The position numbers and the translations under genes are program-made. A stretch of 64,000 nt of DNA from Ensifer sesbaniae (lineage in GTDB: Bacteria > Pseudomonadota > Alphaproteobacteria > Rhizobiales > Rhizobiaceae): assembly GCF_013283665.1 (NCBI RefSeq), contig NZ_JABEKU010000004.1:186001-250000 (forward strand), given 5' to 3'. Positions within the stretch are counted from its first letter, which is position 1; every line of letters starts with the position of its first letter. Under the pieces are notes generated by a model. It worked only from the letters and a program-made list of their open reading frames with translations, was not told where the DNA came from and did not search any database. This document shows positions 3,403 to 46,265 of the stretch, in pieces.

Positions 3403-3452
3403 CGCCCCTATCGACGATTGCGGATACAGAAACACCGGACTCGGAGTATCAA

Positions 3453-4352
3453 ATGGCCTTCCTGAGCGGGCTTTCCGCATTTCCCATCACGCCAAGTGAC
3501 AGAGACGGCCGCGTCGACACTGCCGCACTCAAAAGGCTTGTGGCGAGGCTTTGCACCGCAGGCGTCGATTCCATCGGCCTTCTCGGCAGCACCGGAACCT
3601 ACATGTATCTGTCCCGGGAAGAGCGGCGACGTGCTTTGGACGCGACCATCGAGGAAGCCAACGGGAGCATACCGGTCGTGGTGGGCGTCGGGGCCATGCG
3701 GACGGATGAGGCGGTCAGGCTGGCGCAGGACGCGAAAGCCGCAGGCGCCGCCGCGGGCCTGCTGGCCGCTGTTTCGTATGCGCCACTCACGCAGGATGAG
3801 GTTTTCGAGCACTTCTCCACCGTTACTCGCGACAGCGGCCTTCCGATTGTGATTTACGACAATCCGGGGACCACCCATTTTCGCTTCACCGCTTACCTGG
3901 TGGAGCGCTTGGCTCAAGTGCCTGGCATGGTAGCGATCAAGAACCCGACGGAAAAATCCGAAGAGATCGCGGGGCATCTGGCGCAGCAGAGAGCCACGAC
4001 GCCCAACGGCTTCTCGATCGGTTACAGCGGGGATTGGAATGCCGCCGAGGCCATGATCTGCGGAGCCGATACCTGGTATAGCGTTCTCGCCGGCATCCTT
4101 CCGGACGTCTGCCTGCGCATCGTCAGAGCAGCACAGAGCGGCAATGTTGAAGAGGCACGCCGCCTGGATGCGGGTCTTGCCCCCATCTGGGAGATATTCA
4201 AACAGTTCTCCAGTCTTCGGACAGTCTACACCATGGCCGATCTGCTCGGCGTCTGCCGGGCCGAACCGCCTCGTCCCATTCTCCCCCTGCCTCCGTCGGC
4301 GAAGGAGAAGGTCGCTCACGGCCTGACCTTGCTTGAGCAGGATCTTGCCTGA
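3453..4352 (+). CDS. DapA-family (dihydrodipicolinate synthase / N-acetylneuraminate lyase) aldolase
   Basis: About 299 residues from ATG 3453 (MAFLSGLSAFPITPSDRDG, the usual DapA-family opening). The frame is open back to a GTG at 3399 that overlaps the previous stop, but GGAG at about 3441 favours the ATG. The Schiff-base lysine is in MVAIKNPTEK and the Tyr in IVIYDNPGTT. GSTGTYMYLS replaces the GTTGES loop of true DHDPS, so the substrate is probably not pyruvate plus aspartate semialdehyde. Family members cleave or condense alpha-keto acids with aldehydes. Its place between a PLP lyase and a permease suggests it handles the keto acid or aldehyde made by that lyase (inference). Confidence 0.85.
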   Translation: MAFLSGLSAFPITPSDRDGRVDTAALKRLVARLCTAGVDSIGLLGSTGTYMYLSREERRRALDATIEEANGSIPVVVGVGAMRTDEAVRLAQDAKAAGAAAGLLAAVSYAPLTQDEVFEHFSTVTRDSGLPIVIYDNPGTTHFRFTAYLVERLAQVPGMVAIKNPTEKSEEIAGHLAQQRATTPNGFSIGYSGDWNAAEAMICGADTWYSVLAGILPDVCLRIVRAAQSGNVEEARRLDAGLAPIWEIFKQFSSLRTVYTMADLLGVCRAEPPRPILPLPPSAKEKVAHGLTLLEQDLA

Positions 4353-4393
4353 GGCAAAGCACGGTTTGGCGCCGCCGGAGGATCAAGAGAGCA

Positions 4394-6784: not shown

Positions 6785-7231
6785 TCAGGCCTTTCGAACG
6801 ATGGAAGAAAGGGCGAACGCGGTCAGTGTGTCACGTACGCCTGGGAGCTCGGATATTTGCTGCCAGATCTGGCGAATACGGTCCGGTTGCAAAGACTCGA
6901 CTCTGACCACCAGGTCGAAATCGCCGGTCATCACGTCACAGGCGACAACCTCCGGGATTCTACGCAGAACGTTGACGACGTCACCGCCTCGCATGCGGTC
7001 ATGGCGATAAACGAACATGAGTGCGGTGGTGACCTGTTGAGCGTTTCCGCCTTCACCGGTAACGATCGTGTAACCTTTGATGAAACCTTCTCGTTCGAGC
7101 CGTTCGATGCGCACCCGCACGGCGTTTCGGGACAGATTCACCTTTGCCGACAATTCCGCGTGCGAAATGCGGGCGTTGTTTTTAAGTTCGGCAAGTACCA
7201 GTTCATCTATTCGATCCAGAAGATATTTCAT
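6785..7231 (-). CDS. Lrp/AsnC-family transcriptional regulator
   Basis: A 148-residue protein from ATG 7231 (MKYLLDRIDELVLAELKNNARISHAELSAKVNLS). Purine-rich GAGGCGG lies upstream, and the longer frame to 7288 overlaps the neighbour and lacks family-like sequence. The N-terminal winged helix spans about 1-60 (SRNAVRVRIERLEREGFIKGY). The C-terminal RAM/effector domain spans about 70-145 (VFVYRHDRMRGGDVVNVLRRIPEVVACDVMTGDFDLVVRVE). Lrp-type proteins sense amino acids. It is the last gene of the minus-strand homoserine/aspartate set and overlaps no neighbour, so it is the probable local regulator of that set. Confidence 0.9.
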   Translation of the reverse strand: MKYLLDRIDELVLAELKNNARISHAELSAKVNLSRNAVRVRIERLEREGFIKGYTIVTGEGGNAQQVTTALMFVYRHDRMRGGDVVNVLRRIPEVVACDVMTGDFDLVVRVESLQPDRIRQIWQQISELPGVRDTLTAFALSSIVRKA

Positions 7232-7244
7232 CCCGTTGCCGCCT

Positions 7245-8030
7245 CTATTGGTCGAAGATATCTGGCGTGACCGAATGATAGGCAACAAGGGCGCACTCAG
7301 GGGCCGAAGTCATTCGCGCGCCCGCAGCGGCGCGCTTGGCTGTTGAGGCAAGAACAAACGCAGGCAGAGCTGCTTTTTCTGCTCCCGAAAGCTTTCTGAT
7401 GGTTTGATAACCGCTCAAGAGCGCATGGGCTTTGCGCCGGTCCAAACCGCCGTCGAGCCCGCCTGTCCAGTCAACGAGAACGTCGGCTATCTCAGTGATG
7501 AGGGCGTCATCATGGCGAAGCCTGAAATTGATGACACCGCTGACTTCCTCGCCAAGAAAAAAGACATTCGCAAAGACCAATGCACCATGTATGGGGCCTG
7601 ATGGTAAGTCGGGCTGGCGGTTGAGCCCACCCTGCAAGCTCCTGTGTATCTGGCCCATAACGCGGCCCACACTCGCACATTTGGCTGGCGACGGGTCACT
7701 CGTCGATGATCCTGACACGAAGCTTACGATGGCTACGAGCCGACCCGCAGCCTGAAACGTGGCATTGCCGTCGACAGTGCGCCTGGGTTCGGGGCAGGGG
7801 ACGCCCGCCCGATGCAGCGTTTCCATCGTCGTGAAAGCGCGTTCGAGATCAAGCGGCTCAGCCCCGTTTTCAAACAGGGTCACGATGAACTCCCCTTCGG
7901 CAGACCTGAACAGATAGGTCGTTTCACGATCGCCGTCGGCGATGCCGATCACGGAGGACAAACCTGTCAAGCCGTAAGCTTCCACGATCGCGTGGCGGTC
8001 TTCGTCAGACAGTTCGGTAAATACCGCCAT
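7245..8030 (-). CDS. Homoserine kinase II (ThrB)-like protein with degenerate catalytic motifs
   Basis: 261 residues related to the rhizobial ThrB of the aminoglycoside-phosphotransferase fold (opening MAVFTELSDEDRHAIVEAYGL; middle ANVFFLGEEVSGVIN), against about 320 in the usual enzyme. The catalytic loop normally reads H-x-D-L-F-x-D-N; here it is HGALVFAN, so the catalytic Asp is Ala. The metal-binding DFY/DFG-like Asp is Asn (VINFRLRHDD). The ATP-binding N-lobe is also reduced. Kinase activity is therefore doubtful. A role as a homoserine or aspartate-family sensor, or plain decay, are both possible. It lies 9 bp downstream of aspA, between aspA and the Lrp gene. Confidence 0.7.
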   Translation of the reverse strand: MAVFTELSDEDRHAIVEAYGLTGLSSVIGIADGDRETTYLFRSAEGEFIVTLFENGAEPLDLERAFTTMETLHRAGVPCPEPRRTVDGNATFQAAGRLVAIVSFVSGSSTSDPSPAKCASVGRVMGQIHRSLQGGLNRQPDLPSGPIHGALVFANVFFLGEEVSGVINFRLRHDDALITEIADVLVDWTGGLDGGLDRRKAHALLSGYQTIRKLSGAEKAALPAFVLASTAKRAAAGARMTSAPECALVAYHSVTPDIFDQ

Positions 8031-8039
8031 GGCTTCCCC

Positions 8040-9455
8040 TCAAGCGGACGTGCGCTGCGGGACGTTCGCAAACGCCGCGTAGTCGCTGAAGATTTCCTCG
8101 ATCTGCCGTTTGGTCAGGCATCCGTCGTCCTCGACGATGGAGCGCAGACTTTTCTTTTCAGATAGTGCTCTCTTCGACAGCAAAGCCGCCTTGGAGTAGC
8201 CAATCAGCTTTGCTAGCGGGGTGGCCAGAACGAGAGACTGGTCCAACAACGCCCTGCAACGATCCTTATCGACCTCGATCCCCGCCACACATCGGTTGGC
8301 GAAGATTTCCATCCCTCTGGTCAGCATGCGTATTGACAGCAGGATGTTCAGGACAATGACCGGCTCCATCGCATTGAGTTGCAGTTGTCCGGCGCTTGCG
8401 GCAAGCGTCACCGTCAGATCATTGCCGATCACCTGAAATCCGATCTGATTCATCATTTCCGGGATGACCGGATTGACCTTGCCGGGCATGATTGAGGAGC
8501 CAGCCTGCATCGCCGGCAGCCGAATCTCACCCAATCCCCCGATTGGGCCACTGCTCAAGAGCCGCAGATCGTTGCAGATCTTCGTCATCTTGACGGCAAT
8601 CCGTTTGAGAATGCCTGAGAAGGCGACAAACCCGCCTGTATCCGACGTCGCTTCCACCAGGTTACGAGCTGTCATGAGCGGCAGACCGGAGATCTCGGAG
8701 AGCTTCCTGCACGCAACGCTCGGAAAGGCCGGCGGCACATTGATCGAGGTCCCGATTGCAGAACCGCCGAGATTGACCTCCTGAAGAATTTTCTTGGCAG
8801 ACTGCACCTGGATGATGTCCTCGTCGATCAGCTCCGCAAAGGCTTCGAACTCCTGGCCGACAGTCATGGGCACGGCGTCCTGGAGCTGAGTGCGTCCAAC
8901 CTTTATGACATCCGCGAATTCAGCACCTTTCCGACGGAATGTGTCCCGAAGATTGACCTGCGCGGCGATGAGCGCGTCGCAGGTGCGCAACAGGGTCAAC
9001 CGGATCGCTGTCGGGTAGACATCGTTAGTCGACTGCGAGAGGTTGACGTCGTCGTTCGGGTGAAGCGTGGAATAGTCTCCGACGCTGGCGCCCAGCTTGA
9101 GAAGAGCAAGATTGGCCACAACCTCGTTGACGTTCATGTTGGTCGAGGTGCCCGCTCCGCCCTGCATCATGTCTACTGGGAAATTGTCATCAATCGCTCT
9201 TAGTTCGATGAGATCGTCGCACGCCTCTGCGATCGCATGAGCTTTTTCAGAAGACAGCAGTCCAAGCTCCATATTGGTCAGCGCCGCAGCCTGCTTCACC
9301 ATCGCCATCGACTGGATTAGCTCGGGAAAGTCTCTCAGGCGGAAGCCTGTGACGTTGAAATTCTCCTCCGCGCGCTGAGTATGCACGCCAAACAGCTTAC
9401 CCGCAGGAATGGAGAGAGGCCCGATGAGGTCAGTTTCTATGCGATCGATCTTCAT
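8040..9455 (-). CDS. aspA: Aspartate ammonia-lyase (aspartase)
   Basis: 471 residues from ATG 9455 (MKIDRIETDLIGPLSIP), preceded by GAGG. A TTG start 12 bp upstream is possible. The fumarase/aspartase signature GSSIMPGKVNPVIPEM is intact with the catalytic Ser in the SS loop. GGAGTSTNMNVNEV and STNDVYPTAIR provide the other conserved regions, and the protein has the typical length. Aspartase converts aspartate to fumarate plus ammonium, feeding the TCA cycle. It starts 8 bp after the dapA stop, in one operon with hom, an aldehyde dehydrogenase and dapA. That points to catabolic use of homoserine/aspartate rather than biosynthesis. Confidence 0.9.
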   Translation of the reverse strand: MKIDRIETDLIGPLSIPAGKLFGVHTQRAEENFNVTGFRLRDFPELIQSMAMVKQAAALTNMELGLLSSEKAHAIAEACDDLIELRAIDDNFPVDMMQGGAGTSTNMNVNEVVANLALLKLGASVGDYSTLHPNDDVNLSQSTNDVYPTAIRLTLLRTCDALIAAQVNLRDTFRRKGAEFADVIKVGRTQLQDAVPMTVGQEFEAFAELIDEDIIQVQSAKKILQEVNLGGSAIGTSINVPPAFPSVACRKLSEISGLPLMTARNLVEATSDTGGFVAFSGILKRIAVKMTKICNDLRLLSSGPIGGLGEIRLPAMQAGSSIMPGKVNPVIPEMMNQIGFQVIGNDLTVTLAASAGQLQLNAMEPVIVLNILLSIRMLTRGMEIFANRCVAGIEVDKDRCRALLDQSLVLATPLAKLIGYSKAALLSKRALSEKKSLRSIVEDDGCLTKRQIEEIFSDYAAFANVPQRTSA

Positions 9456-9463
9456 CGGTGACC

Positions 9464-10342
9464 TCAACTCAAAATGCCAGCGTGGAGCATCGCCCGGTCG
9501 ATCTGTTCGCGAACCGAGCTGCTTACGGGAACAAGAGGCAATCGCAGGTCTCCACGGATGCGTCCCAGCCGCTCCAGGGCATATTTTGGTCCAGCGGGGT
9601 TTGTTTCCAGGAAGAGCGCCCGGTGCAATGGCATCAGACGATCCTGGATCTCCAAAGCCGAGGCGAAGTCGCCTCCAAGGCAGGCGCGCTGGAATTCAGC
9701 GCACAGGCGCGGTGCAATGTTGGCGGTCACAGAAATGCACCCGTGCCCGCCATGGGCCATGTAGCCGAGGGCTGTGCCGTCTTCCCCGGTCAGCAGGTTG
9801 AAGTCCTTGCCGCAGGCCATGCGCTCCAGTGAAGGTCGCAGGAGATTGCCGGTGGCGTCCTTGACGCCGCTCACATTTTTGCAGTCGCTAAAAATGCGCG
9901 CCAGCGTCTCGACCTGAATGTCGATCACACTGCGACCCGGAATATTGTAGACGATGATCGGGATCTCGGCCTCGGCATCTATGGCTTTGAAATGCTGATA
10001 GATGCCCTCCTGCGTCGGCTTGTTATAATAGGGCGAGACGACCAGCAATCCATCGGCGCCGGCTTCCTGTGCATGGCGAACGAAGTCGATTGCCTCCGCC
10101 GTGCTGTTCGAGCCTGCCCCTGCAATGACCGGGATGCGGCCGCCGACCGTTTTGACCGTAATCTCGACAACTTGTTTGTGCTCGGCATGCGTGAGTGTCG
10201 GACTTTCGCCTGTCGTTCCACATGGGACCAGCCCGGATGATCCCTCCTCGATCTGCCAGTCGATAAGGGCGCGCAGCGCGCCTTCATCGACACGCCCATC
10301 AGCAAAGGGTGTAACAAGTGCGGTGATGGAACCTTTGAACAA
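9464..10342 (-). CDS. dapA: 4-hydroxy-tetrahydrodipicolinate synthase
   Basis: 292 residues, typical DHDPS length and start ([20 protein letters not shown]). Catalytic residues are visible: GTTGESPTL (Thr of the triad), the Tyr and substrate loop [13 protein letters not shown], and the Schiff-base lysine in [10 protein letters not shown]. The enzyme condenses pyruvate with aspartate semialdehyde (ASA), the first step of the lysine branch. In this operon hom would produce ASA from homoserine, so dapA may drain excess or toxic semialdehyde into lysine/diaminopimelate. It is probably a second copy beside a chromosomal housekeeping dapA (inference). Confidence 0.9.
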
Positions 10343-10385
10343 AATGGTACTCCTGATGTTGCTGATGGGCTTGTTGGCTGGTGAT

Positions 10386-11807
10386 CTATTGCCGTTTCAG
10401 CCTGTTGATGCAGACGACCTTTGGTTGGGTCATGTCTTCAAAAGCAAAGCGCACCCCTTCGCGGCCCATGCTGCCATACTTGAAGCCGCCGAACGGCATA
10501 GCGTCGAACCGGTAGTCGGAAGAGTCGTTGATCATGATCCCTCCGGCATCAATCCCGCTGGCCGCCTCGAGGGCTCCCTCGAGGTCATTAGTGAATATAC
10601 CGGCGTGCAGACTGTAGTCTGGCGCATTCGCAAGGCGGATGGCATCCCAGAGCGCATCGAAGGGTTCGAGGATTACGATCGGGGCGAACACCTCTTCGCT
10701 CCATAGGTCGCAACCGAAGGGAACATTTTCCAAGACCGTCGGCGGGTAAAGGGTGCCCGCCGGGCTGTGGCCGCAAAGAAGGTCGGCGCCAGAAGCAATG
10801 GCGCGGTCGACCATCGCCGCTGCGCGTTGAACGGCACGTTCCGAAATCATCGGGCCGACATCAGTGTCAGGCTCAAGTGGGTTTCCGGTCTTGAGCATTT
10901 TTGTGGCTGCAACGAACTCCGACTTGAACCGCTCATAAATGGAGCGCTGGATCAGGATCCTCTGGGTGCCAATGCAGTTCTGACCGGCCGCCCAGTAGGC
11001 TCCAGACACGCAGCCGTCGACCGCAGCGACAAAATTGCAGTCCTCCATGACGATGACTGGTGCATTGCCTCCCAGATCCATCGCCAGCTTCTTGATGCCT
11101 GCAGCCTTGGCGATTGCCTCCCCCGTGGCAAACCCGCCCGTGAACGAAATCATTCGCACGTCTCTTGCCACGACGAGTGCCTTGCCAAGATCCGCGCCAC
11201 CAATGACAACCGTAACGATCTCTTCCGGAAGGCCGCTTTGCACCAGAACGTCGACCAGTTTGAGCGCCGACAGGGGAGCAAGCTCAGACGGCTTCAGGAG
11301 CACGGCGTTTCCACCGGCAATCGCCGGCCCAAGTTTATGGGCGACCAGGTTCAGCGGATCATTATAAGGGGTGATTGCCGTAATGATCCCGAGCGGCTCT
11401 CGCGTGTACCAGCCCTGCCGGGCTTCGGACCCAGCATAGGACTCGAACGGAATGACTTCGCCGGCATTGCGTTTGGCCTCATCGGCCGAGAGTTTTAGCG
11501 TGTTGACGCATCGGGTCGCCTCTTTGCGGGCTTGCGTTATCGTTTTGCCGGCCTCGTTGACGATCAGAAGCGCGAATTCTTCATGCGCCGCCTCAATGCA
11601 GGCGGCTGCCTTTTCGAGGATTGCAGCTCGCTTGTGGCGCGGCAAAGCTTTGGCGGCCTGCGCTCCGCGGTGCGCGCGTTCAATAAGGCTGCTCACGCAA
11701 GAAGCATCGCTGCTTGGAACGGTTCCGACGACCGATCCGTCGAAAGGGTTGCGCACGACGATCTCGTCGCTTGAAAAGGGTGCGTTCAGGGCGAGGCCGT
11801 GCATCAT
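10386..11807 (-). CDS. NAD(P)-dependent aldehyde dehydrogenase, candidate aspartate-semialdehyde oxidase
   Basis: A 473-residue ALDH-superfamily enzyme. It has the catalytic Cys in [13 protein letters not shown], the cofactor-binding [13 protein letters not shown] and [16 protein letters not shown], and the C-terminal [17 protein letters not shown]. The usual general-base Glu of the ELGG motif is Asp here (MDLGGNAP), as also happens in some subfamilies. Family relatives oxidise small polar aldehydes such as lactaldehyde and phosphonoacetaldehyde. Its start overlaps the hom stop by 4 bp (ATGA type), so it is tightly coupled to homoserine dehydrogenase. The simplest role is oxidation of aspartate semialdehyde to aspartate for AspA. 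Substrate is inferred from context only. Confidence 0.85.
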
Positions 11808-12865
11808 GCGGCCTCCTTTGCAATGGCGGAGGTGCTTTGGGTGTGAATTGCCACGATGTCGGACAGAAGAGCATAGGCGGTCTCAATTCGCCCCGCACCT
11901 GGTCCGGTAACCGTCACAGAACCGAGCAGCTTCGTGTTGAACGAAACTGCATTGGTTGGACCGTTGACGGCGGCGAGAGGATGCTCCAACGGCAGTTGCT
12001 TCGGCATGACGCTTCCGACGACGCGGCCGTCTGCCCCCCGGGAGGCGGAACCAATGAGTTTCCAGCGGCTGTTGGTCTTGGCTGCATCCCCGATGTCAGA
12101 AGGCGAAAGCTGCGAAATGCCTTTGCAGGTGACGTCATCCGGCTTGAGCTGCGCACCAAGCAGCTCATTGGCAAGGATGACGACCTTGAGGCGGACGTCG
12201 AAGCCTTCCACATCCGCCGTGGGGTCGGCTTCCGCGTAGCCGAGCTCCTGTGCTTGCCGGACGGCGGTATCGAAATCCAGGCCACTTTCCATGCGTCCCA
12301 GAACGAAGTTGGAAGTGCCGTTCAGGATTCCCTCGAAACCATCGACCTCAGCGCCCGCGAGCGTCTTCGCGGCCATTCGGATCACCGGCGTTCCGCTCAT
12401 CACGGAACCCTCGTACTCAAACCGGACGCCATTTGCCTCAGCGAGAGCTTTCAGCTCCAACGCGGCGAGTGCCACCGGGCCCTTGTTTGTCGTGACCACA
12501 TGCTTGCCGCTTGCAAGCGCCCAACGGCAATGGGAGACTGCGGGCTCGCCGTCCGTTGGGTTGGTGAACGTTGCCTCTACGACAATGTCTGCCGGCGCGG
12601 TCCTGATGATCGTTTCGTTGTCCGCTTCCGCACTGCCGCCTGAGAGTTGGCCGAACCCCCCTTTGGTGAACTTGGCGTCAATCAGCGTCTTCGCGTCGAG
12701 CCCGTTTGGTGAGATCACGGAGCCCAGATAAAGATCGCTCACAGCGACAATGTTCAGACGGAACCCGAGCTCCCGCTCCCACAGCGTGTTCCTTGTTGCG
12801 ATAAGCTCGGCCAAAGCGCGGTTTACGCCGCCAAAGCCGATGAGGGCAATGTTGTAGACGGTCAT
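11804..12865 (-). CDS. hom: Homoserine dehydrogenase, short form without ACT domain
   Basis: 353 residues. The N-terminal NAD(P) fold reads [24 protein letters not shown] carries the catalytic Lys; [26 protein letters not shown] and [16 protein letters not shown] are the hallmark motifs of the catalytic domain. The C-terminal ACT regulatory domain of biosynthetic Hom (about 430 residues) is absent, so threonine feedback is not expected. This fits use in the oxidative direction, homoserine to aspartate semialdehyde. It leads the operon hom-aldh-dapA-aspA-thrB-like. The segment 12866-13059 upstream holds only a short unremarkable frame and presumably the promoter. Confidence 0.9.
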
Positions 12866-13059
12866 GACAATCCTCCAATGACACCAATGATGTTCTCTGC
12901 TTGCCGAGAATGGGAGGCAGACCGCTCAGTGGGAACGGCGCAAATCGGCCAAAGGAGGAGGCATTTCGCCCAAAGTGCCTGCGTGACGATGCTTGCGCTC
13001 ATTGCTTCTCTTGCGAGCAATCCGGCGAGCTGCTGGAGGTCCTGCAACAACACTGACAT

Positions 13060-13971
13060 CTATGAAATTCCGTCCAGTTTGAGGCTTTGCTGCGCAAGGC
13101 GGATGATGGCCGCAGTCAGCCCCTCCAGCGGTTGGACCGCTACGCGATGAACCTGCCATTGCACCGGCAAGTCGACGCCTGTCCCTTTGATCAATTCTGT
13201 CAGAGTGCCGGACTTGAGATGGGCCGCCGCAAGGTGAGCCGGGACAACGCCCCATCCAATGCCTGCGAGGGCTGCATCGAAGATGCTTGCGCGCGAGGGT
13301 AGCCGATGCACCGGAGACTCGACACCATCGCCGAGCGCAACTTTGACCCATCGCTTCGGAAAGGGGTCCGTCGACCCCATGGCCAGACCAGGCGCTTTGG
13401 CCATCGCCTCGGGGCTTGCGCCTTGTGGGAAATGGCGGCTGCTAAAGCCCGGTGTTGCCACGGCTACCAGGCGCAGGCTGCCCAACGAACAGCTGTCGTG
13501 ATCCTCAAGCCGTTCCTCGCCTAAGGTGACCGCAGCGACAACCTCGCCGGCTCGCAGCCTTTCTAGCGTCGGGATGGTCTCATTCAGAACCAGGTCGACG
13601 AGAAACGGTGCGGATCGTACGAAGTTGGAGACAGCATCCAGGATCCAGCTCCCGAGCCATTCCGGATTGGCGGCAATCCTGATGGTCATGCGTTCAGGCA
13701 GTGAGCCAGGACCGATGAGACCGGGCATTCTGGAGGCCAATTGGCGCTCGAGCAGTTCGACGCGCTCGAAATGGTGGACGAGCTGAGCACCCGCCGTGGT
13801 GGCGGAACACGGGCTTCCTCTGACGATCAACGCGACGCCGAGACGTTGCTCCAACTGCTTGACCCGCTGCGACACAGCTGATTGCGTAACCTTCAGTTCG
13901 CGCGCAGCTCTGTCGAAGCTGCCCAACCTGATGACAGAAACGACGGCCTTGACTGCCTGGTAGTCTATCAT
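13060..13971 (-). CDS. LysR-family regulator of the ArgP/LysG type
   Basis: A 303-residue LysR protein. The HTH is at about 1-60 (IDYQAVKAVVSVIRLGSFDRAARELKVTQSAVSQRVKQLEQ). The effector domain shows the ArgP-like features GEVVAAVTLGEERLEDHDS, PKRWVKVALG and GIGWGVVPAHLAA. ArgP/LysG regulators sense arginine or lysine and control the LysE/ArgO exporter. In E. coli, ArgP is a canavanine-resistance determinant because ArgO exports canavanine. No LysE gene is next to it; its neighbours are the SMR exporter (upstream, same strand) and hom (downstream). It probably senses a basic amino acid such as canavanine or arginine and controls the surrounding genes (inference). Confidence 0.87.
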   Translation of the reverse strand: MIDYQAVKAVVSVIRLGSFDRAARELKVTQSAVSQRVKQLEQRLGVALIVRGSPCSATTAGAQLVHHFERVELLERQLASRMPGLIGPGSLPERMTIRIAANPEWLGSWILDAVSNFVRSAPFLVDLVLNETIPTLERLRAGEVVAAVTLGEERLEDHDSCSLGSLRLVAVATPGFSSRHFPQGASPEAMAKAPGLAMGSTDPFPKRWVKVALGDGVESPVHRLPSRASIFDAALAGIGWGVVPAHLAAAHLKSGTLTELIKGTGVDLPVQWQVHRVAVQPLEGLTAAIIRLAQQSLKLDGIS

Positions 13972-14080
13972 GGCTCGAGTCCAGTCTGCGTTTGATGGTT
14001 GGCGAAGTGTGTTCTTGTCTGGGCTTGGCGCGCAAAATCGCTGACACCGGAGCGCGCGATCGACCGTCGCAAACCTTCTT

Positions 14081-14401
14081 TCATCCGGCGTTCGACAGCT
14101 TCATCATCAGAAGACCGGAGAGTATCATGGCGCCGGCGAGAATGCGCATTGGGGCAGCTGGCTCGTTCAAGACCAGGACGCCAAGCAGGAACGACCCGAT
14201 GGCTCCAATGCCAGTCCAGACAGTGTAGGCCGTGCCAAGCGGAAGAACGCGCATCGAGAATGAAAGCAGCACACCACTTGCGATCATTGCGGCGACCGTG
14301 ATTGCCGACGGAACAAGCAGTGTGAAGCCTTCGGACTTTTTCATATAGAAGGCCCAGACCACTTCGAGCAGCCCGGCGATGAGCAGAATAATCCAATGCA
14401 T
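14081..14401 (-). CDS. sugE: SMR-family exporter, SugE/Gdx (guanidinium) subtype
   Basis: 106 residues with four hydrophobic helices. The central membrane Glu is in LLEVVWAFYMKKSEGFT (residue about 12). The subtype signature W-A-x-x-x-K-x-S-x-G-F-T-x-L-x-P-S and PLGTAYTVWTGIGAIGSF match SugE/Gdx rather than EmrE. Gdx proteins exchange protons for guanidinium and small guanidinyl compounds. The gene lies 90 bp downstream of the gamma-lyase-like gene on the same strand. If that enzyme cleaves canavanine, the by-product hydroxyguanidine would be the natural export substrate. Dual-topology homodimer expected. Confidence 0.85.
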   Translation of the reverse strand: MHWIILLIAGLLEVVWAFYMKKSEGFTLLVPSAITVAAMIASGVLLSFSMRVLPLGTAYTVWTGIGAIGSFLLGVLVLNEPAAPMRILAGAMILSGLLMMKLSNAG

Positions 14402-14491
14402 AGTGTGTCTTCCTTGAGAACGTCGCTGATACAGCGAGAAGATCCCAAGGAGAGGGCTTCCCGCTGCACCGGGGCGTCTGAATTCGCGTCT

Positions 14492-15703
14492 TCAGGACTG
14501 GCCGAAGGTCTCGTCGAGAGCGTTTTTGATATCGGCGATGAGGTCCTCGGGATCCTCCAAGCCGATGGAAAGACGCAGATGTCCATATTTCTGGAAATTC
14601 AGCGGATAGCGTTCGGCGCCTCCGCGGCCGCTCCCCCCGACGTGCACGATCAGGGTTTCGTCGTGGCCGAGCGAGACCGCTGAGGTGATCACCTTCAGAT
14701 TGGAAACGAAACGGTTCTGGGCGTCCGGGTCCCCCTCGACCGCGAAGGCCATGACGCCGCCATAACCCTTGCCTGCAAATTGAGCCTGTGCGAGTTGGTG
14801 CTGGTCGTGGCTTTCGAGCCCGGGATAAGTGACGTAGGCAACCCGCTCGTCCCGCGCAAGGTTATCCGCAACGACCTGTGCGGTCGCGAACTGCTGCTTG
14901 AGGCGCAATGGAAGCGTGACTGAGCCGCGGGTGATCAGCCAGGCATTGAAGGGGGAGATCGTTCCGCCGAGATCGACAAGGGCGTCCGCCTTGACATGAT
15001 GGATGAGCTCCTTGGAACCGACCACCACACCGCCCATCGCATCACCATGGCCATTGATGTACTTGGTCAGGGAGTGGATGACGAGATCGGCGCCGAGCGC
15101 CAGCGGCCGGAAAAAGGGGGGAGGCGTAAAGGTGGAGTCGACCGACAGAAGCGCGCCAGCCTGCCTGGCTATGGAGACCAGTGTCGCGATATCGGCGACC
15201 TTTGTGGTCGGATTGGCGATCGTTTCCGTATGGATCAGCTTCGTGTTAGGCCGAACAGCGGCTCTGACTGCCTCCATGTCGCCCATGTCGACGAAGGTTG
15301 CCTCAATCTTGTAGCGCTGAGGCAAGAGCTCGGCGAAGAGCCGCCAGACGGCTTCATACGTGACATCGCCGACGATCACATGATCGCCGCTTTTCAGAAA
15401 GGTGAAGAACACGGCGTGGAGGGCAGCGACACCGGTTGCGAAGACGGCTGCGTCCTCTCCACCTTCCATGGCCGCCAGCTTGCGCTGCAGGCAGATCTGG
15501 TTATGACCGGAATTGCGTGTATAGGAAGGCGCCTCCGTGTCCGACCAGTCCATAGTCGAGGGGTCGTAGGGCAGAAGATAGGAATTGGCCATGACGATCG
15601 GTGTGCGGATCGCGCCGGAGGTCTTGTCGATCTCGTTGCCACCATGCACCGAAAGCGTGTTGAAGGAGAGCGTTGAAAGCTCGTGTTTGTCTGGTCTGGA
15701 CAT
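14492..15703 (-). CDS. Trans-sulfuration-family PLP enzyme, candidate canavanine gamma-lyase
   Basis: A 403-residue PLP enzyme with a complete active site: SYTRNSGHNQICLQ (Tyr and Arg at the dimer interface; the common NPT is replaced by NSG), GDVTYEAVWRL (stacking Tyr), the PLP lysine in IHSLTKYINGHGDAMGG, and SAVSLGHDETLIVH. It diverges clearly from the enzyme at 2167. It sits directly downstream of a basic-amino-acid type ABC importer and upstream of a guanidinium-type exporter. Canavanine gamma-lyase, known from Pseudomonas canavaninivorans and Rhizobiales, belongs to this family and splits canavanine into homoserine and hydroxyguanidine. Context makes that assignment likely. Cystathionine gamma-synthase or methionine gamma-lyase remain alternatives. 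Confidence 0.8.
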   Translation of the reverse strand: MSRPDKHELSTLSFNTLSVHGGNEIDKTSGAIRTPIVMANSYLLPYDPSTMDWSDTEAPSYTRNSGHNQICLQRKLAAMEGGEDAAVFATGVAALHAVFFTFLKSGDHVIVGDVTYEAVWRLFAELLPQRYKIEATFVDMGDMEAVRAAVRPNTKLIHTETIANPTTKVADIATLVSIARQAGALLSVDSTFTPPPFFRPLALGADLVIHSLTKYINGHGDAMGGVVVGSKELIHHVKADALVDLGGTISPFNAWLITRGSVTLPLRLKQQFATAQVVADNLARDERVAYVTYPGLESHDQHQLAQAQFAGKGYGGVMAFAVEGDPDAQNRFVSNLKVITSAVSLGHDETLIVHVGGSGRGGAERYPLNFQKYGHLRLSIGLEDPEDLIADIKNALDETFGQS

Positions 15704-15741
15704 GTCGTGGGCCTCTGATTTTTCTGGGTTTGAGGGCCGCG

Positions 15742-16431
15742 CTAGCGGCGAGTCGGCACAGCGTTTTCGAGCTTCTGGAAGGCCTGGGTGATGAGAAAGG
15801 TCAGACCGACATAGAAGAGGGTGACGAGGAGCAGCGGTTCATAGACGAGCAGCGTGTCCTGGCGGATCTTGTAGGCGGCGCCATAGAGGTCCATGACCGT
15901 CACCGAAAACACGATCGGCGTGGCCTTGAGCTGAAGGACCACTTCTCCGGCGAAGGTCGGCAAGCCGATGCGGATTGCACGGGGAAGCCAGATCCGGCGC
16001 AGGATCATGGCAGGCGACATGCCAACGGCGCGAGCAGCCTCCAATTCACCCTTCGGAACCGCCAACATGGCGCCTCTGAGGATCTCACCTTGATAGGCTG
16101 CAAAATTCAGCGTCAGCGCAAGGGCGGCGAAGAACAGGCCTTCTCGCAATATCGGCCACAGGAAACTTGTCCTCAGTCCCGGTACGTAAGGCAGATACGT
16201 GCCCAGGCCGTAGTAAATGAGCCAGAGCTGAATCAGAAGCGGTGTGCCGCGGAAGAACGTGCAGTACCCCTTCGCAAGCCAGCGTGCGACGGGGTTCTTG
16301 CCCACCTGGGCGATCGCAAGGAAGATCGCCAGGCCAAAGCCGCAGGTCACCGAGATCACGAGCAGCAGGCAGGTGAGGAAAGCACCCTGCAGGATGAGAT
16401 CGCGGTAGGGGAAAATCCAGCTGAAATCCAT
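15742..16431 (-). CDS. ABC transporter permease, HisM/ArtM family
   Basis: 229 residues from ATG 16431 (MDFSWIFPYRDLILQGAFLTCLLLVI) with GGGAG just upstream. The longer frame to 16656 reads into the previous permease gene. About five membrane segments, the family motif FFRGTPLLIQLWLIYYGLG and the EAA loop GELEAARAVGMSPAMILRRIWLPRA are present. It is one half of the heterodimeric membrane channel of a polar/basic amino-acid importer (His/Arg/Lys/opine type). It lies between the partner permease and the PLP lyase, with short gaps that imply one operon. Confidence 0.9.
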   Translation of the reverse strand: MDFSWIFPYRDLILQGAFLTCLLLVISVTCGFGLAIFLAIAQVGKNPVARWLAKGYCTFFRGTPLLIQLWLIYYGLGTYLPYVPGLRTSFLWPILREGLFFAALALTLNFAAYQGEILRGAMLAVPKGELEAARAVGMSPAMILRRIWLPRAIRIGLPTFAGEVVLQLKATPIVFSVTVMDLYGAAYKIRQDTLLVYEPLLLVTLFYVGLTFLITQAFQKLENAVPTRR

Positions 16432-16442
16432 GTCTGGCTCCC

Positions 16443-17165
16443 TTACACAACCGGTCTTTGTCCGCGACGGAAGTAGGCTTCCAGCGTAGCGAAGAGCATG
16501 TTCGAGACTATGGTGATTACGAGGTAGAGCACCGCAGCAGCCAGAAAGAACACCATGTATTCCTTGGTGTTGCTTGCTGCGACGCGCGCGGCAAGCGCCA
16601 GTTCCTGGTAGCCGACGACGGCGATCAATGCGCTGTCCTTGATGACCGACATCCATAGATTGGCAAAGCCCGGCAGCGCGTTCGGGATGAGACCCGGCAG
16701 AACGATCCTGCGGAATCGCAACGCCGGACGCATTCCGAAAGCCTTGGCGGCTTCCAGTTGCCCGACAGGGATTGCAAGGATTGCGCCGCGCAGCACCTCG
16801 GTCATGTAGGCACCTTGCACAAAGCCAAGGACCGCAACAGCCGCGACAAGACCGTTGATTTCGATAGGTCCCAGTCCCGCCCAGGCGAGGATACGGTTCA
16901 GGCCGTCAGTTCCAGCGTAATAGAGGGCAACGATGAGTATCAGCTCGGGTACGGCACGAATGATCGTGGTATAGGCATTGAGCAGGAATTGGAGCGGCCG
17001 AAACCCACTCAGTTTTCCGAGCGCGCCGAACAGTCCGATTAGCATCCCGACCAGATATGCTCCGGACGAGATCAGGACAGTGGCCAGGGCACCCGCAAGG
17101 AGCACGCCTCCCCAGCCGGGAGGAGCGATGGACAGAAGATCCAGCGCTGAATGTGTGGGGTTCAT
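16443..17165 (-). CDS. ABC transporter permease, HisQ/ArtQ family
   Basis: 240 residues from ATG 17165 (MNPTHSALDLLSIAPPGWGGVLLAG); the longer upstream frame shows no family sequence. It has about five transmembrane segments, the family motif IIRAVPELILIVALYYAG and the EAA loop GQLEAAKAFGMRPALRFRRIVLPG that contacts the ATPase. It pairs with the permease at 15742-16431, whose start lies 11 bp beyond its stop. The HisQ/HisM-type pair imports histidine, arginine, lysine, octopine or similar amino acids. Confidence 0.9.
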   Translation of the reverse strand: MNPTHSALDLLSIAPPGWGGVLLAGALATVLISSGAYLVGMLIGLFGALGKLSGFRPLQFLLNAYTTIIRAVPELILIVALYYAGTDGLNRILAWAGLGPIEINGLVAAVAVLGFVQGAYMTEVLRGAILAIPVGQLEAAKAFGMRPALRFRRIVLPGLIPNALPGFANLWMSVIKDSALIAVVGYQELALAARVAASNTKEYMVFFLAAAVLYLVITIVSNMLFATLEAYFRRGQRPVV

Positions 17166-17232
17166 GGGAAGCCTTCCAGTCAGGGCAGGGGATCGCCACA
17201 CAGCTGTGTGGCGATCTGCAGCCGCTTCGCTC

Positions 17233-17994
17233 TCAATAGGGGTCGTAGTCGAAGTACTTCTTGCTGAATTCGGCATACTTGCCGCTGTCCCTGACGGCCT
17301 TGATGGCAGCGTTCAGTCTTTCGCGCAACGCGTCGTCGCCCTTACGCACACCACCGCCGACTCCCGCTCCGAGGATGGTGTCGTCCGGCTCGACATTGCC
17401 CTTGTACTCGCAGCACTCCTCTCCGAGGTCGGTCTTCAGGAACTCCTTGAGCGGGCCGGTGTCGGCAAAGACGTAGTCGATGCGTCCGGAGGCAAGGTCC
17501 TGGAAGGACTCATCGACCGTCGCATAGCTCTTCTCGCTCGCGACGTCGGCAAAGTGTTTCTTGAAATAGGCGGATTGGGTGGTCGAGACGGCAATGCCCA
17601 CCGTCTTGTCCTTCAGCTCCTTGGCCGTGACCCCCATGGCGCCGTCCTTCGGGCCGATCATCCCCGCCAGCGCCGAATAGTACTTTTCGGTAAAATCAAT
17701 CCGCTTCTTGCGCTCGTCGGTGATCGACATGGAGGACCAGATCACGTCGATCTTCTTGCTTTCCAGCGCCGGGATGAGGCCATCCCAGGCAACGTCGACG
17801 ATCGTGCACTTCTCCTTCAGCTCCTCACAGACGGCGTCCATCAGGTCGATCTCCCAGCCGATCGCCTTGCCGGAGGCGTCCTTGGTCGTGTAAGGCGGAT
17901 AAGCCTCGTTGACGATGCCAAAGCGGATGTCGGCATGCGCATTTGCCGCCATCATGAACATGCCGATAGCCAGAGCTTTTCCCAGATGCTTCAT
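17233..17994 (-). CDS. Periplasmic amino-acid-binding protein of the ABC importer
   Basis: 253 residues with a Sec signal peptide, MKHLGKALAIGMFMMAANAHA, cleaved before DIRFGIV. ATG 17994 is chosen because AAGGGGA sits about 8 bases upstream; the ATG at 18000 would be too close to it. Type-II solute-binding features are GWEIDLMDAVCEELKEKC, IDVIWSSMSITDERKKRIDFTEKYY and GVGGGVRKGDDALRERLNAAI. The Arg in SMSITDERKKRI usually holds the ligand alpha-carboxylate. It supplies ligand to the two permeases downstream. Ligand not readable; context favours a basic or guanidino amino acid such as canavanine or arginine. Confidence 0.9.
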   Translation of the reverse strand: MKHLGKALAIGMFMMAANAHADIRFGIVNEAYPPYTTKDASGKAIGWEIDLMDAVCEELKEKCTIVDVAWDGLIPALESKKIDVIWSSMSITDERKKRIDFTEKYYSALAGMIGPKDGAMGVTAKELKDKTVGIAVSTTQSAYFKKHFADVASEKSYATVDESFQDLASGRIDYVFADTGPLKEFLKTDLGEECCEYKGNVEPDDTILGAGVGGGVRKGDDALRERLNAAIKAVRDSGKYAEFSKKYFDYDPY

Positions 17995-18031
17995 TTGCAT
18001 TCCCCTTTTTGCTGTTGAAAAGATTGAGTGG

Positions 18032-18814
18032 TTAGTGCGAACCGGCTGCAACGAATTCTTTGCAGCGAGCGCTCGTGGGCGCGCCGAAGACCTGTGCGGG
18101 GGAACCTTCCTCCTCAACCTGGCCCTGGTGCAGAAACATGACGCGTGTCGAGACATCGCGAGCGAACTTCATCTCGTGGGTGACCATGATCATGGTGCGG
18201 CCCTCCTCGGCGAGGCCGCGGATGACCTTCAGCACCTCCCCGACAAGCTCGGGATCAAGAGCCGATGTCGGCTCATCAAACAGCATGACGGCGGGATCAA
18301 CGCAGAGTGCGCGAGCGATGGACGCGCGTTGCTGTTGTCCGCCTGACAGGAAGGCCGGGTAGGCGTCCTTTTTGTCGTAAAGACCGACCTTGGCCAGTAG
18401 TGCTTCGGCCTTCTCGATGGCTACGACCCGCTCGACCCCGAGCACATGTACCGGCGCTTCGATGACGTTCTCAAGGATGGTCATGTGCTGCCACAGGTTG
18501 AAACTCTGGAAGACCATGCCCAGGCCGGTTCTCAGCCTTTCGATCTGGCGCCAGTTCGCGGGTTGCGATTTTCCGCCGCGCCCGCTTCGGAACGCGACTT
18601 CTTCGCCATTGATGCGGAAGGAACCACAATCCGGAATCTCAAGGAAGTTGATGCAGCGCAGGAAGGTGCTCTTGCCCGAACCTGACGATCCAATAATCGA
18701 GACGACATCGCCCTTCTCGGCCGACAGGGAAATGCCCTTCAGGACCTTGTGGGCTCCGTAGCTCTTGTGAACATCACTCACGACCAGAGCGGGCGCGTGT
18801 TTCTCAGTGCGCAT
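18032..18814 (-). CDS. ABC transporter ATP-binding protein, HisP/ArtP family
   Basis: A 260-residue ATPase. The Walker A is IIGSSGSGKSTFLRC, the Q-loop is VFQSFNLWQHMTILENV, the signature is LSGGQQQRASIARAL, the Walker B is AVMLFDEPTSALDPE, and the switch His is in IMVTHEMKFARDV. It is the first gene of the importer set: ATPase, binding protein, two permeases, then lyase and exporter. It powers uptake of a polar amino acid. The 185 bp between its start and the B3/B4 gene (18815-18999) show no other gene and probably carry the operon promoter. Confidence 0.93.
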   Translation of the reverse strand: MRTEKHAPALVVSDVHKSYGAHKVLKGISLSAEKGDVVSIIGSSGSGKSTFLRCINFLEIPDCGSFRINGEEVAFRSGRGGKSQPANWRQIERLRTGLGMVFQSFNLWQHMTILENVIEAPVHVLGVERVVAIEKAEALLAKVGLYDKKDAYPAFLSGGQQQRASIARALCVDPAVMLFDEPTSALDPELVGEVLKVIRGLAEEGRTMIMVTHEMKFARDVSTRVMFLHQGQVEEEGSPAQVFGAPTSARCKEFVAAGSH

Positions 18815-18999
18815 TGTTCCTCCTTTGCGATACGGTGAACGCCCGCTCCTCCGGGCAAAGCTTCGCCGCCGCCGCGTCGCCGCGACGAAAAATTGTCCGA
18901 TCTGTCAGCGAATGACGCCACTTGTTAGCTGGCGCTTGCCCACAGTCTGGGGTAAGCAGTCAATATACTGACTTTCGTCACTTGCTCTGCGGGCGCTAC

Positions 19000-19686
19000 C
19001 TACGCCGCCAGAAGGTTTTGCCTATATACTTCGCACCCCGGCGCCAGTTGCCGAAGACCATTCACCAGCATGTTGGCCGCCTCCTCAAGCGCCTCCTCCG
19101 GCATCGTTTCGAGGCTCTCCAGGATGAACCACATCCGACCACCGATGGAATCCAGCCGCGTGCGCGTTCCCTGCCGCCAATTCCACCGGCGGCATGTCAC
19201 GCCGATATCGTCGCGCCAGATCACCTCACCAACGGACGGATGCTCGATGATCGCCTCGCCATTCGCGACCGTGTCAAAGGCTTCCGTGCCGTCGGCAATC
19301 GACAGCCGCGGCTTGCCGACATAGGCATCAAAATTCTCGCCGCCGACGGGCACAGCAAAACGCAGGCTGACGGCATTATAGAGGTCGACCAACGGATTGA
19401 TGGAGGGTAGGCGACCGTCCTTTTCAACCCGCTTCTTCAGCGCCTGTGCAGAGCATGGCGTCCGGTTGGGCTTGGCCCCGAAACGGCTATAGACGTCTGC
19501 CCAACTGGCAAGATGCGCGTCGCCCCATTGTGGTCCACCGGCGCGGACGAAGTCACAGGTTTCCCCAAGGACGTCGCGCGCCATTGGCCCGCGGGTTGGA
19601 TCGCTGGCATCAACCAAGATGCTGATAGCACGAAAATCCGGCGCTATTTCTGCGACAGACCTGTCGACGAGCGGAAAATCCAACAT
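19000..19686 (-). CDS. B3/B4-domain protein, candidate canavanyl-tRNA deacylase (CtdA-like)
   Basis: 228 residues built around a B3/B4 domain, the fold of the phenylalanyl-tRNA synthetase beta-subunit editing module. Visible blocks are VDASDPTRGPMARDVL, the central RFGAKPNRTPCSAQALKKRV, LPSINPLVDLYNAVSLRFAVPVGG, and IWRDDIGVTCRRWNWRQGTRT. The only well-described stand-alone relative with matching context is CtdA of Pseudomonas canavaninivorans, which removes canavanine wrongly loaded on tRNA-Arg. The gene heads the minus-strand block whose other members look like canavanine uptake and cleavage. It is divergent from an XRE-cupin regulator with a 43-bp shared promoter. Domain call firm, substrate inferred. 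Confidence 0.75.
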   Translation of the reverse strand: MLDFPLVDRSVAEIAPDFRAISILVDASDPTRGPMARDVLGETCDFVRAGGPQWGDAHLASWADVYSRFGAKPNRTPCSAQALKKRVEKDGRLPSINPLVDLYNAVSLRFAVPVGGENFDAYVGKPRLSIADGTEAFDTVANGEAIIEHPSVGEVIWRDDIGVTCRRWNWRQGTRTRLDSIGGRMWFILESLETMPEEALEEAANMLVNGLRQLAPGCEVYRQNLLAA

Positions 19687-19697
19687 ACCCTCTAGCT

Positions 19698-19722
19698 CCT
19701 ATTGACCAATTTAGTCTATAAT
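19698..19722. promoter_or_regulatory. Shared divergent promoter/operator with imperfect dyad
   Basis: Only 43 bp separate the B3/B4 and XRE-cupin genes. This AT-rich stretch reads CTATTGACCAATTTAGTCTA then TAATA, an imperfect dyad (TATTGAC and GTCTATA arms) with a TATAAT-like hexamer. A regulator bound here would control both genes at once; the XRE-cupin protein itself is the obvious candidate (inference). Confidence 0.45.
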
Positions 19723-19729
19723 ACCGACC

Positions 19730-20353
19730 ATGGAAAAGAAAGTCAATATATCGACCGAAGCGGTCGCTGATGTCGAGCGCGTCAGCGCCACCGTCTCGCA
19801 GAACCTGAAAACCTTCAGGCGCCAGAGCGGCCTGACGCTCGATGAACTGTCCCGCAAGTCCGGTGTGAGCAAGGGCATGCTTGTCGAGATTGAGAAGGGA
19901 AGCGCCAATCCCAGCATCGCCACGCTCTGCCGGGCCGCCACCGCCTTGGGCGTGTCGGTTGCAGATTTCGTTGGCGTCGCGTCGAGTGTTCCTGTTCGCA
20001 TCGTCCCACCGCAAGACGCATCGACCCTGTGGCACGGTCCGAAGGGCGGAAGCGCCACACTTCTGGTGGGAACCAACGGGCCGGACGAGATCGAGCTGTG
20101 GCGCTGGACGCTTTTCCCAGGCGAGATTTTTGAATCTCCCGGCCATTCGCCCGGCACACTCGAGCTCCTTAACGTCGAAACGGGTGAGCTCACGCTGAAG
20201 CTTGGAGATAGCGAGCACTTGGTGCAGGCGGGCTCGTCCGTTCTGGCGCGGACCGAGGACAAGCACGCCTACATGAATTGCGGAAAAGATGAACTGCGTT
20301 TTGTCATGGCGGTCGCGGAACTGCAGCGGCCGCGGGTGCGAACGGGTCTCTAG
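19730..20353 (+). CDS. XRE-family regulator with C-terminal cupin domain
   Basis: 207 residues. A Cro/CI-type helix-turn-helix spans about 22-78 (NLKTFRRQSGLTLDELSRKSGVSKGMLVEIEKGSANPSIATLCRAA). A double-stranded beta-helix cupin spans about 105-195 (ELWRWTLFPGEIFESPGHSPGTLELLNVETGELTLKLGD). Such proteins sense small molecules, often amino-acid derivatives, through the cupin pocket. It is divergent from the B3/B4 gene, so it probably sets the level of the editing-like protein and maybe the importer block. A PLP-lyase-like gene follows after 15 bp and is likely co-transcribed. Confidence 0.88.
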   Translation: MEKKVNISTEAVADVERVSATVSQNLKTFRRQSGLTLDELSRKSGVSKGMLVEIEKGSANPSIATLCRAATALGVSVADFVGVASSVPVRIVPPQDASTLWHGPKGGSATLLVGTNGPDEIELWRWTLFPGEIFESPGHSPGTLELLNVETGELTLKLGDSEHLVQAGSSVLARTEDKHAYMNCGKDELRFVMAVAELQRPRVRTGL

Positions 20354-45674: not shown

Positions 45675-46265
45675 ATGCCTGCTGACGTGCGATGGAAACT
45701 TTGTTGGGAAAATGAGCTGCAAGTCGACGATCACGCAGAACTTTCTGCGTTCTTTCGTAATACCTACGGGCCGACGGGCGCGTTCAATGCAATGCCCTTC
45801 GAAGGTGGCCGCAGTTGGGCCGGAGCGCGGCCCGAAATGCGCGTGATTGCTTACGACTCGCATGGCGTTGCCGCCCACATGGGCATGTTGCGGCGTTTCA
45901 TCAAGGTCGGGGAGGTGGATCTCCTGGTGGGGGAACTGGGGCTGTGGGGAGTGCGTGCCGATCTTGAAGGACTTGGGCTTAGTCATTCAATGTTTACGCT
46001 GTATCCGGAGTTGCAGCGGCTCGGCGTCCCATTCGCGTTCGGCACGGTTCGGCACGCGCTGTACAAGCACGTTGAGAGACTGTGCCGCGGCGGTATTGCG
46101 ACCATCCTCCCAGGGGTGCGCGTGCGCTCCACTCTCCCAGAGGTCTACCTCGATCTGCCAGCCACGCGAATTGAGGACCCCCTCGCCGTTGTGTTTCCCA
46201 TAGCGCGCTCGATGGACGAGTGGCCTTCCGGCACGCTAATTGATCGTAATGGCCCAGAGCTATGA
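45675..46265 (+). CDS. nodA: NodA, Nod-factor N-acyltransferase
   Basis: 196 residues, the standard NodA length. Characteristic blocks are [68 protein letters not shown] and [19 protein letters not shown]. NodA moves a fatty acid from an acyl carrier (including NodF) to the free amino group on the non-reducing end of the chitin oligomer made by NodC and NodB. Cytosolic or membrane-associated. The stop overlaps the nodB start (ATGA). Confidence 0.98.

Follow-up and report, generated by a model that had tools for sequence, protein, structure and literature searches.

A block of genes on the minus strand of contig NZ_JABEKU010000004.1 of Ensifer sesbaniae is very probably an island, carried on a plasmid, that allows the bacterium to survive and feed on L-canavanine, a toxic defence compound of many legumes. 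The block occupies positions 6785–19686 of the analyzed window, a 64,000-nucleotide stretch placed on a 255-kb contig in a genome of 6.9 Mb. Open reading frame and family scans of the window identified 14 consecutive genes encoding, in order, a B3/4 protein, four importer proteins, a lyase dependent on pyridoxal 5'-phosphate (PLP), a small multidrug resistance (SMR) protein, an ArgP-like regulator, homoserine dehydrogenase (Hom), an aldehyde dehydrogenase (ALDH), DapA, aspartate ammonia-lyase (AspA), a ThrB-like kinase, and an Lrp-type regulator. The genes, their order, strand, and span agree with an original prediction made from the nucleotide sequence alone, which had counted thirteen genes instead of fourteen.

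In the proposed pathway, a HisPQMJ-type ATP-binding cassette (ABC) importer would take up canavanine, and the B3/4 protein, CtdA, would strip it from mischarged tRNA-Arg, as has been shown for relatives. The lyase would cleave canavanine into homoserine and hydroxyguanidine, a reaction also shown for relatives, and the SMR protein, which has the residues of Gdx-type exporters, would export the guanidino product. Hom, ALDH, and aspartase, whose families are present in the island, would convert homoserine to aspartate semialdehyde, the semialdehyde presumably to aspartate, and aspartate to fumarate and ammonia. An XRE-cupin protein most probably controls ctdA and its own gene through a 28-bp site. 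This core of import, tRNA proofreading, gamma-cleavage, guanidino export, and breakdown of homoserine to fumarate, already put forward in the original prediction, is supported by the match to CtdA, the clade of the lyase, and the partners of the lyase gene.

The B3/4 protein matches PDB entry 9f7e, 'CtdA Canavanyl tRNA Deacylase', with 307 bits over residues 4–220, which supports its predicted identity as CtdA and bears out the kinship suggested earlier. Two CtdA proteins from Pseudomonas lyase loci match the same entry with 449 and 360 bits, and the one other B3/4 relative in the E. sesbaniae genome is much weaker, with 32% identity over part of the protein. CtdA reportedly edits canavanyl-tRNA(Arg) but not homoarginyl-tRNA(Arg); the B3/4 gene stands in front of the canavanine operon in Pseudomonas canavaninivorans, and CtdA is encoded beside canavanine degradation genes in Rhizobium leguminosarum (PMC10018355).

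The lyase could instead be an ordinary trans-sulfuration enzyme, a cystathionine gamma-synthase or methionine gamma-lyase, in an island for sulfur amino acids or homoserine. It belongs to the same Pfam family, and among solved structures methionine gamma-lyases are closest to it (281 bits). However, among the matches listed (25 of 62 families) it scores at most 300 bits against curated models with cut-offs of at least 477, and stays below those of cystathionine gamma-synthase and methionine gamma-lyase. In a quick maximum-likelihood tree, the 49 lyases compared, which come from rhizobia, from Pseudomonas and Paraburkholderia, and from actinobacteria, split from 28 other proteins with a branch support of 100 and a program warning of long branches among the non-clade members. 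The 28 include six proteins from the E. sesbaniae genome, with paralogues L003 and L007 among them, and the methionine gamma-lyase of Citrobacter; the far outliers L045–L047 and the duplicate L114 were omitted. An earlier tree without L003 and L007 separated the same 49 lyases from 14 paralogues, likewise with a support of 100. The clade contains Pseudomonas lyases from CtdA-linked operons. The original prediction had named clustering with cystathionine gamma-synthases as evidence against itself, and the lyase instead falls on this well-supported branch of its own. Elsewhere the genome encodes an O-succinylhomoserine sulfhydrylase, a cystathionine beta-lyase, and a protein of a cystathionine gamma-synthase family, all above their cut-offs, so that methionine synthesis can be accounted for without the island lyase; the lyase clade lies apart from these methionine-pathway enzymes as well as from the Citrobacter enzyme.

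The catalytic lysine of the island lyase is Lys214, the counterpart in the alignment of Lys210 in Citrobacter methionine gamma-lyase, and it is conserved in all 49 clade members. The active site of the fold lies between subunits. Residues Y61, R63, Y116, D189, S211, K214, S344, and R377, which presumably hold PLP and the substrate carboxylate throughout the family, are common to 25–31 of the 31 other proteins aligned. Residues N64, G66, N68, Q69, A118, V119, and W120 are present in 49 of 49 clade members and are rare or absent in those 31; Ala118 stands in the position of Cys115 of the Citrobacter enzyme. The trans-sulfuration enzyme was rejected on the curated cut-offs, the separate clade, and the clade-specific residues, and is extremely improbable. 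Clade and gene partners together support orthology of the predicted enzyme to canavanine gamma-lyase.

The surroundings of 51 lyase loci were compared, and partners were counted within a neighbourhood of 11 kb in the 43 loci whose sequence extends 8 kb or more to either side. Eight loci with less than 8 kb on one side (L023, L028, L031, L038, L043, L044, L081, and L087) were left out of the counts; outside the 51 are duplicates (L026, L027, L082–L084), short pieces (L056, L063), distant paralogues (L045–L048), a fragment (L049), and two loci without the lyase (L015, L016). Many of the loci are closely related, and the counts represent non-independent events. The commonest partner is CtdA (37 of 43), followed by XRE (36), the importer ATPase (35), ALDH and Lrp (34 each), the SMR protein (31), Hom (30), AspA, DapA, and the ThrB-like kinase (17 each, confined to rhizobial loci), and the ArgP-like regulator (10). 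Most Pseudomonas loci combine the lyase with the importer, SMR protein, ALDH, Hom, Lrp, CtdA, and XRE, and all 14 counted have a threonine-synthase-like gene. A LysE-family exporter is encoded near the lyase in 15 of the 43 loci, for example L011, L013, and L067; it may be a relative of MsiA, a canavanine exporter. Two lyase genes, an additional one of Mesorhizobium caraganae and that of Rhizobium giardinii (L041 and L049), are apparently broken or fragmentary.

The linkage to CtdA speaks against a trans-sulfuration enzyme and also against the view that canaline or a guanidino or guanidinooxy compound other than canavanine is the substrate handled by the island. The substrates of the importer and lyase are assigned by homology, and an arginase-family protein encoded beside some lyases could turn canavanine into canaline. 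However, the frequent neighbour of the lyase is the enzyme with the reported preference for canavanyl-tRNA(Arg), and another substrate is very improbable. It is unlikely, too, that the island mainly detoxifies canavanine and contributes little to nutrition. Such a role would agree with the plasmid records, of which 64 have CtdA at an identity of at least 60% (166 at an E value of 1e-20 or better, 46 of them from Sinorhizobium) versus 15 with the lyase (E value of 1e-100 or better, one from Sinorhizobium). Tolerance of canavanine without its use may be the usual state, and the lyase could sit on another replicon of the strain. Three of the 23 rhizobial loci (L019, L022, and L024) retain ctdA and the XRE gene but lack the island importer and the homoserine genes in their vicinity. 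However, Hom, ALDH, and AspA occur together in 15 of the 23 and a dedicated importer in 19, and the import of a poison is sensible only when the poison is used.

Alignment of the SMR protein with Gdx-type chains needs no gaps, and the protein has E13, W16, S42, Y59, and W62, all five binding residues named for Gdx-Clo (PMC10829512 and partly PMC9574504). The first four are present in all 34 loci with an SMR gene, and W62 in 33. The protein would expel the guanidino product, for which hydroxyguanidine is the proposed cargo. In two of ten Pseudomonas loci scanned, a guanidine-II riboswitch occupies the space between ctdA and the SMR gene, immediately before the latter. A guanidine-I riboswitch is reported to be triggered by hydroxyguanidine (PMC10018355).

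Several observations weigh against the canavanine explanation. The SMR protein falls narrowly below the NCBIfam SugE cut-off (119 versus 126 bits). A guanidine riboswitch often, though not necessarily, precedes a gene of the Gdx type. No guanidine riboswitch was detected in the window at gathering scores or, between positions 12800 and 20400, up to an E value of 5, nor in the six rhizobial relatives scanned. The importer genes stay below the listed cut-offs for specific histidine, arginine, and lysine/arginine/ornithine transporters; the general permease domain TIGR01726 is above its cut-off in both permeases (52.1 and 58 versus 42.2). The four genes encode an amino acid ABC importer, and canavanine is its presumed substrate. 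ALDH is below the cut-off of every model among the matches listed (25 of 44). In six of the 43 loci no CtdA is encoded within 11 kb of the lyase; three of these loci are arginase-family variants, described below. Hom, ALDH, and AspA represent the families expected for a route from homoserine to fumarate, but DapA and the ThrB-like kinase lie outside this route and have no established role. The kinase is also below the homoserine kinase cut-offs (165.2 versus 271 for PRK05231 and 134.2 versus 255.9 for thrB_alt).

The original prediction named an ArgP-like regulator and overlooked the XRE-cupin gene. Of 23 rhizobial loci, 10 carry an ArgP-like gene (at least 40% identity) and 22 the XRE-cupin gene no more than 11 kb from the lyase; the XRE-cupin gene is also present in 11 of 14 Pseudomonas loci. 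ArgP was rejected as the conserved regulator, and the XRE-cupin protein is probably the conserved regulator of the island. Between them, ctdA and the XRE gene leave 43 bp, which contain a 28-bp site kept in 24 rhizobial loci. Because the matrix derives from these 24 sites, the score of 48.8 for the window site is necessarily high; the second-best site in the window scores 4.0, and the best site in one shuffled window 10.4. Outside rhizobia, the site scores 26.1 in the Pseudomonas locus L079, and only 2.7–6.6, the level of chance, in L067, L085, and L037. It ends at the start codon of the XRE gene and lies just upstream of ctdA, a placement that fits joint control and self-control in rhizobia.

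The E. sesbaniae genome contains a sister island (L093:3779-15404, corresponding to C2:1175778-1187403), which is a natural control for the canavanine island. It shares the importer, Hom, ALDH, DapA, AspA, ThrB-like kinase, and Lrp at 52–78% identity, has a lyase (L093:7396-8664) about 43–45% identical to the canavanine-type lyase, and carries a relative of homocysteine S-methyltransferase. Sixteen loci of the sister type were compared, of which 15 are distinct (L110 and L114 are one replicon). CtdA, SMR, and XRE are absent from the stretches fetched for all 16, the importer is found in 14, the homocysteine S-methyltransferase relative in 11, and Hom, ALDH, and AspA together in five, including that of E. 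sesbaniae. CtdA and the Gdx-type protein therefore track the canavanine-type lyase and not the importer or the use of homoserine. The sister island thus allows the companions for a toxic guanidino compound, CtdA and Gdx, to be separated within one genome from general homoserine-use genes. As a guess, the substrate of the sister lyase may be S-methylmethionine, a plant amino acid that would suit it as a cation and as the compound from which the homocysteine S-methyltransferase family takes its methyl group. The usual absence of homoserine genes beside the sister lyase speaks against homoserine as its regular product. A literature search returned, among the partial records seen, no S-methylmethionine lyase so titled, which is not proof that none exists.

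In five variant loci (L021, L028, L035, L036, and L087) the lyase adjoins an arginase-family protein and another importer. An aquaporin-type gene is present in L035 and L036 (66% mutual identity) and, by Pfam, in L021. The best solved relatives of the arginase-family protein (L087:3974-4936 in one variant) are agmatinases and related ureohydrolases, with about 87 bits and less. The protein has the motif GGDDS in all five loci; the usual motif of the family is GGDHS. It could hydrolyze hydroxyguanidine, or canavanine itself. Four of the five assemblies also hold a standard CtdA-linked lyase locus, and in the fifth, that of Agrobacterium fabrum Kin001, ctdA and a portion of the importer genes adjoin an IS21 element on the plasmid that bears the variant. 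On this plasmid, pAt2 (L015, L087), the IS21 element occupies the place expected for the permeases, lyase, SMR protein, ArgP, Hom, and ALDH of the CtdA island, and the variant lies close by. It is possible, although rather doubtful, that these islands belong to a family of plasmid modules combining a shared type of cation importer with interchangeable gamma-lyases for different plant amino acids and sometimes a homoserine-to-fumarate route. In such a family, the sister island would be a previously undescribed route by which S-methylmethionine is imported and split into dimethyl sulfide and homoserine, and nitrogen would be recovered from hydroxyguanidine by the arginase-family variant. The presence of homoserine genes beside only five of the 16 sister lyases counts against it.

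Judged by sequence comparison, the gene block of the canavanine island is not a chance arrangement, because it recurs nearly whole on two other plasmids. A plasmid of Agrobacterium pusense matches 99% of it with a DNA identity of 97.2%, and a plasmid of Sinorhizobium alkalisoli from a Sesbania nodule matches at 95.2%, with an IS110 element inserted. At least 80% of the block is found in one place in three of the 105 plasmid records having a match. At the level of individual proteins, the island also recurs in many other rhizobia, with identities mostly of 60–99% except for ArgP. The lyase is rare and was found in one of 398 genomes sampled from the phylum, namely that of E. sesbaniae, and in four of 297 genomes of the family, in which E. 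sesbaniae is the sole carrier among five of its genus. It is present in 18 of 398 genomes, at 71–75% identity and with no weaker match above the limit, of a genus taken to be Pseudomonas; this name was inferred from the RsmY RNA family, which is above its cut-off in 15 of the 398 genomes of the phylum, and the genus searched is that of one of these 15. A scan of named genomes with two short peptide patterns, which misses Pseudomonas and is no census, returned 33 lyase loci, four of which are distant paralogues (27–37%). The carriers are Mesorhizobium, Rhizobium, Agrobacterium, Allorhizobium, Neorhizobium, Pararhizobium, Shinella, Sinorhizobium, Microvirga, and one further isolate among the Rhizobiales, and Streptomyces, Brevibacterium, and Saccharopolyspora among the actinobacteria. 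Plasmid records add the lyases of Paraburkholderia hospita and another Streptomyces.

The replicon that bears the island is a symbiosis replicon, because nodA is located on the same molecule, 26 kb from the island, as the original prediction had anticipated in proposing a linkage to nod genes. A NodC-like glycosyltransferase of the chitin-synthase type is encoded at 46924–48255. The stretch 39500–64000, which holds nodA, matches the A. pusense plasmid over 56% at 94.6% identity and the S. alkalisoli plasmid over 52% at 91.1%. Phage-type integrase genes are present downstream of the nod genes, at 54627–60027. Records bearing the lyase come from Sesbania, Lotus, Vicia, Vavilovia, Robinia, and Leucaena, and also from Phaseolus, walnut, and soil. 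Sesbania makes canavanine. The partial texts returned by a literature search on Sesbania and canavanine contain no statement to this effect. Adaptation to canavanine-rich legume hosts is plausible. The location of the island on a nodulation plasmid offers a clean case for asking whether symbiosis genes carry a metabolic trait along with them and whether this trait helps to shape the choice of partner.

Table 1. Features of the canavanine island and related elements; positions are those of the window unless a locus is named
Feature	Position	Strand	Evidence and remarks
ctdA, predicted stand-alone B3/4 canavanyl-tRNA(Arg) deacylase	19000..19686	-	Pfam B3_4 E 5.4e-20; PDB 9f7e E 9e-91, 307 bits
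XRE-cupin gene, divergent from ctdA, probable island regulator	19730..20353	+	Pfam HTH_3 49.8 bits (cut-off 23), Cupin_2 35.1 (cut-off 27.2)
Candidate operator TTGACCAATTTAGTCTATAATACCGACC, between ctdA and XRE gene	19702..19729	+	Conserved in 24 rhizobial intergenic regions
Importer ATPase, HisP-like	18032..18814	-	NCBIfam HisP 356.5 bits, cut-off 466
Importer substrate-binding protein, cationic amino acid type	17233..17994	-	TIGR01096 Lys/Arg/Orn-binding 208.7 bits, cut-off 256.35; start from A. pusense homologue of 762 bp
Importer permease 1, HisQ-like	16443..17165	-	HisQ subfamily 167.9 bits, cut-off 319; start from 723-bp homologue
Importer permease 2, HisM-like	15742..16431	-	HisM subfamily 148.4 bits, cut-off 306; start from 690-bp homologue
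Predicted canavanine gamma-lyase, PLP enzyme	14492..15703	-	Pfam Cys_Met_Meta_PP E 6e-102; own clade; clade-specific residues
Predicted Gdx-type SMR exporter	14081..14401	-	PDB chains 8vxu E 2.6e-27, 6wk5 E 3.3e-26
ArgP/LysG-type LysR regulator, variable part of island	13060..13971	-	TIGR03298 278 bits, cut-off 273.55
Homoserine dehydrogenase (Hom)	11804..12865	-	NCBIfam PRK06270 479.6 bits, above cut-off of 373
Aldehyde dehydrogenase, proposed aspartate semialdehyde oxidiser	10386..11807	-	ALDH family
DapA, no explained role in island	9464..10342	-	TIGR00674 339.8 bits, cut-off 206.15
Aspartate ammonia-lyase (AspA)	8040..9455	-	PRK12273 661.3 bits, cut-off 510; start from 1416-bp homologue
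APH-fold kinase resembling homoserine kinase (ThrB-like)	7245..8030	-	Pfam APH
Lrp/AsnC regulator	6785..7231	-	Pfam HTH_24, AsnC_trans_reg; start from 447-bp homologue
nodA	45675..46265	+	Pfam NodA 320.1 bits
Guanidine-II riboswitch, Pseudomonas locus	L079:12383-12432		35.4 bits, gathering score 32
Guanidine-II riboswitch, Pseudomonas locus	L080:8234-8283		33.1 bits, gathering score 32

Both flanks of the island encode further Cys/Met-family enzymes. The region 2167–5857, which is common to A. pusense, contains one near methionine gamma-lyase, a DapA-family protein with relatives near the lyase in 17 of the 43 canavanine loci, and an L-lactate-permease-like gene. A third Cys/Met-family enzyme, at 20369–21571, adjoins the XRE gene and has relatives (at least 45% identity) near 13 of the 23 rhizobial loci.

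Canavanine gamma-lyase was reportedly described by Hauth in 2022 in Pseudomonadaceae and Rhizobiales. The canavanine operon of P. canavaninivorans and R. leguminosarum contains the lyase, CtdA, and homoserine-degrading enzymes, as does the island of E. sesbaniae. The Pseudomonas operon differs in its gene order and in the threonine-synthase-like gene, and the rhizobial loci are distinguished by additional genes for AspA, DapA, and the ThrB-like kinase. The SMR protein has the same five binding residues as the Gdx-Clo-type exporters (PDB 6wk5 and 8vxu), from which it is set apart by the lack of a riboswitch in the window and by its proposed cargo. A locus on plasmid pRL8 of R. leguminosarum 3841 (L016) has Hom, ALDH, AspA, the ThrB-like kinase, and Lrp in the same order as the island, with identities of 82%, 80%, 71%, 67%, and 79%. 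It differs in its importer, and no lyase, CtdA, SMR protein, or DapA was found there. A homoserine catabolism cluster on pRL8 of this strain was reportedly described by Vanderlinde in 2014, and L016 is presumably this cluster, with the gene pRL80071. The pea rhizosphere induces pRL80071, which encodes the homoserine dehydrogenase of pRL8 (PMC3333776), an enzyme of a type for which a preference for oxidation has been reported (PMC10228743). The available part of PMC10018355 contains no mention of the operator, the sister island, or the arginase-family variant. The island is not new in kind, because the same paper reports CtdA together with canavanine degradation genes in R. leguminosarum; the canavanine system is already published for Pseudomonas and R. 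leguminosarum (Hauth 2022, 2023), and the island of E. sesbaniae is a well-preserved new example of it.

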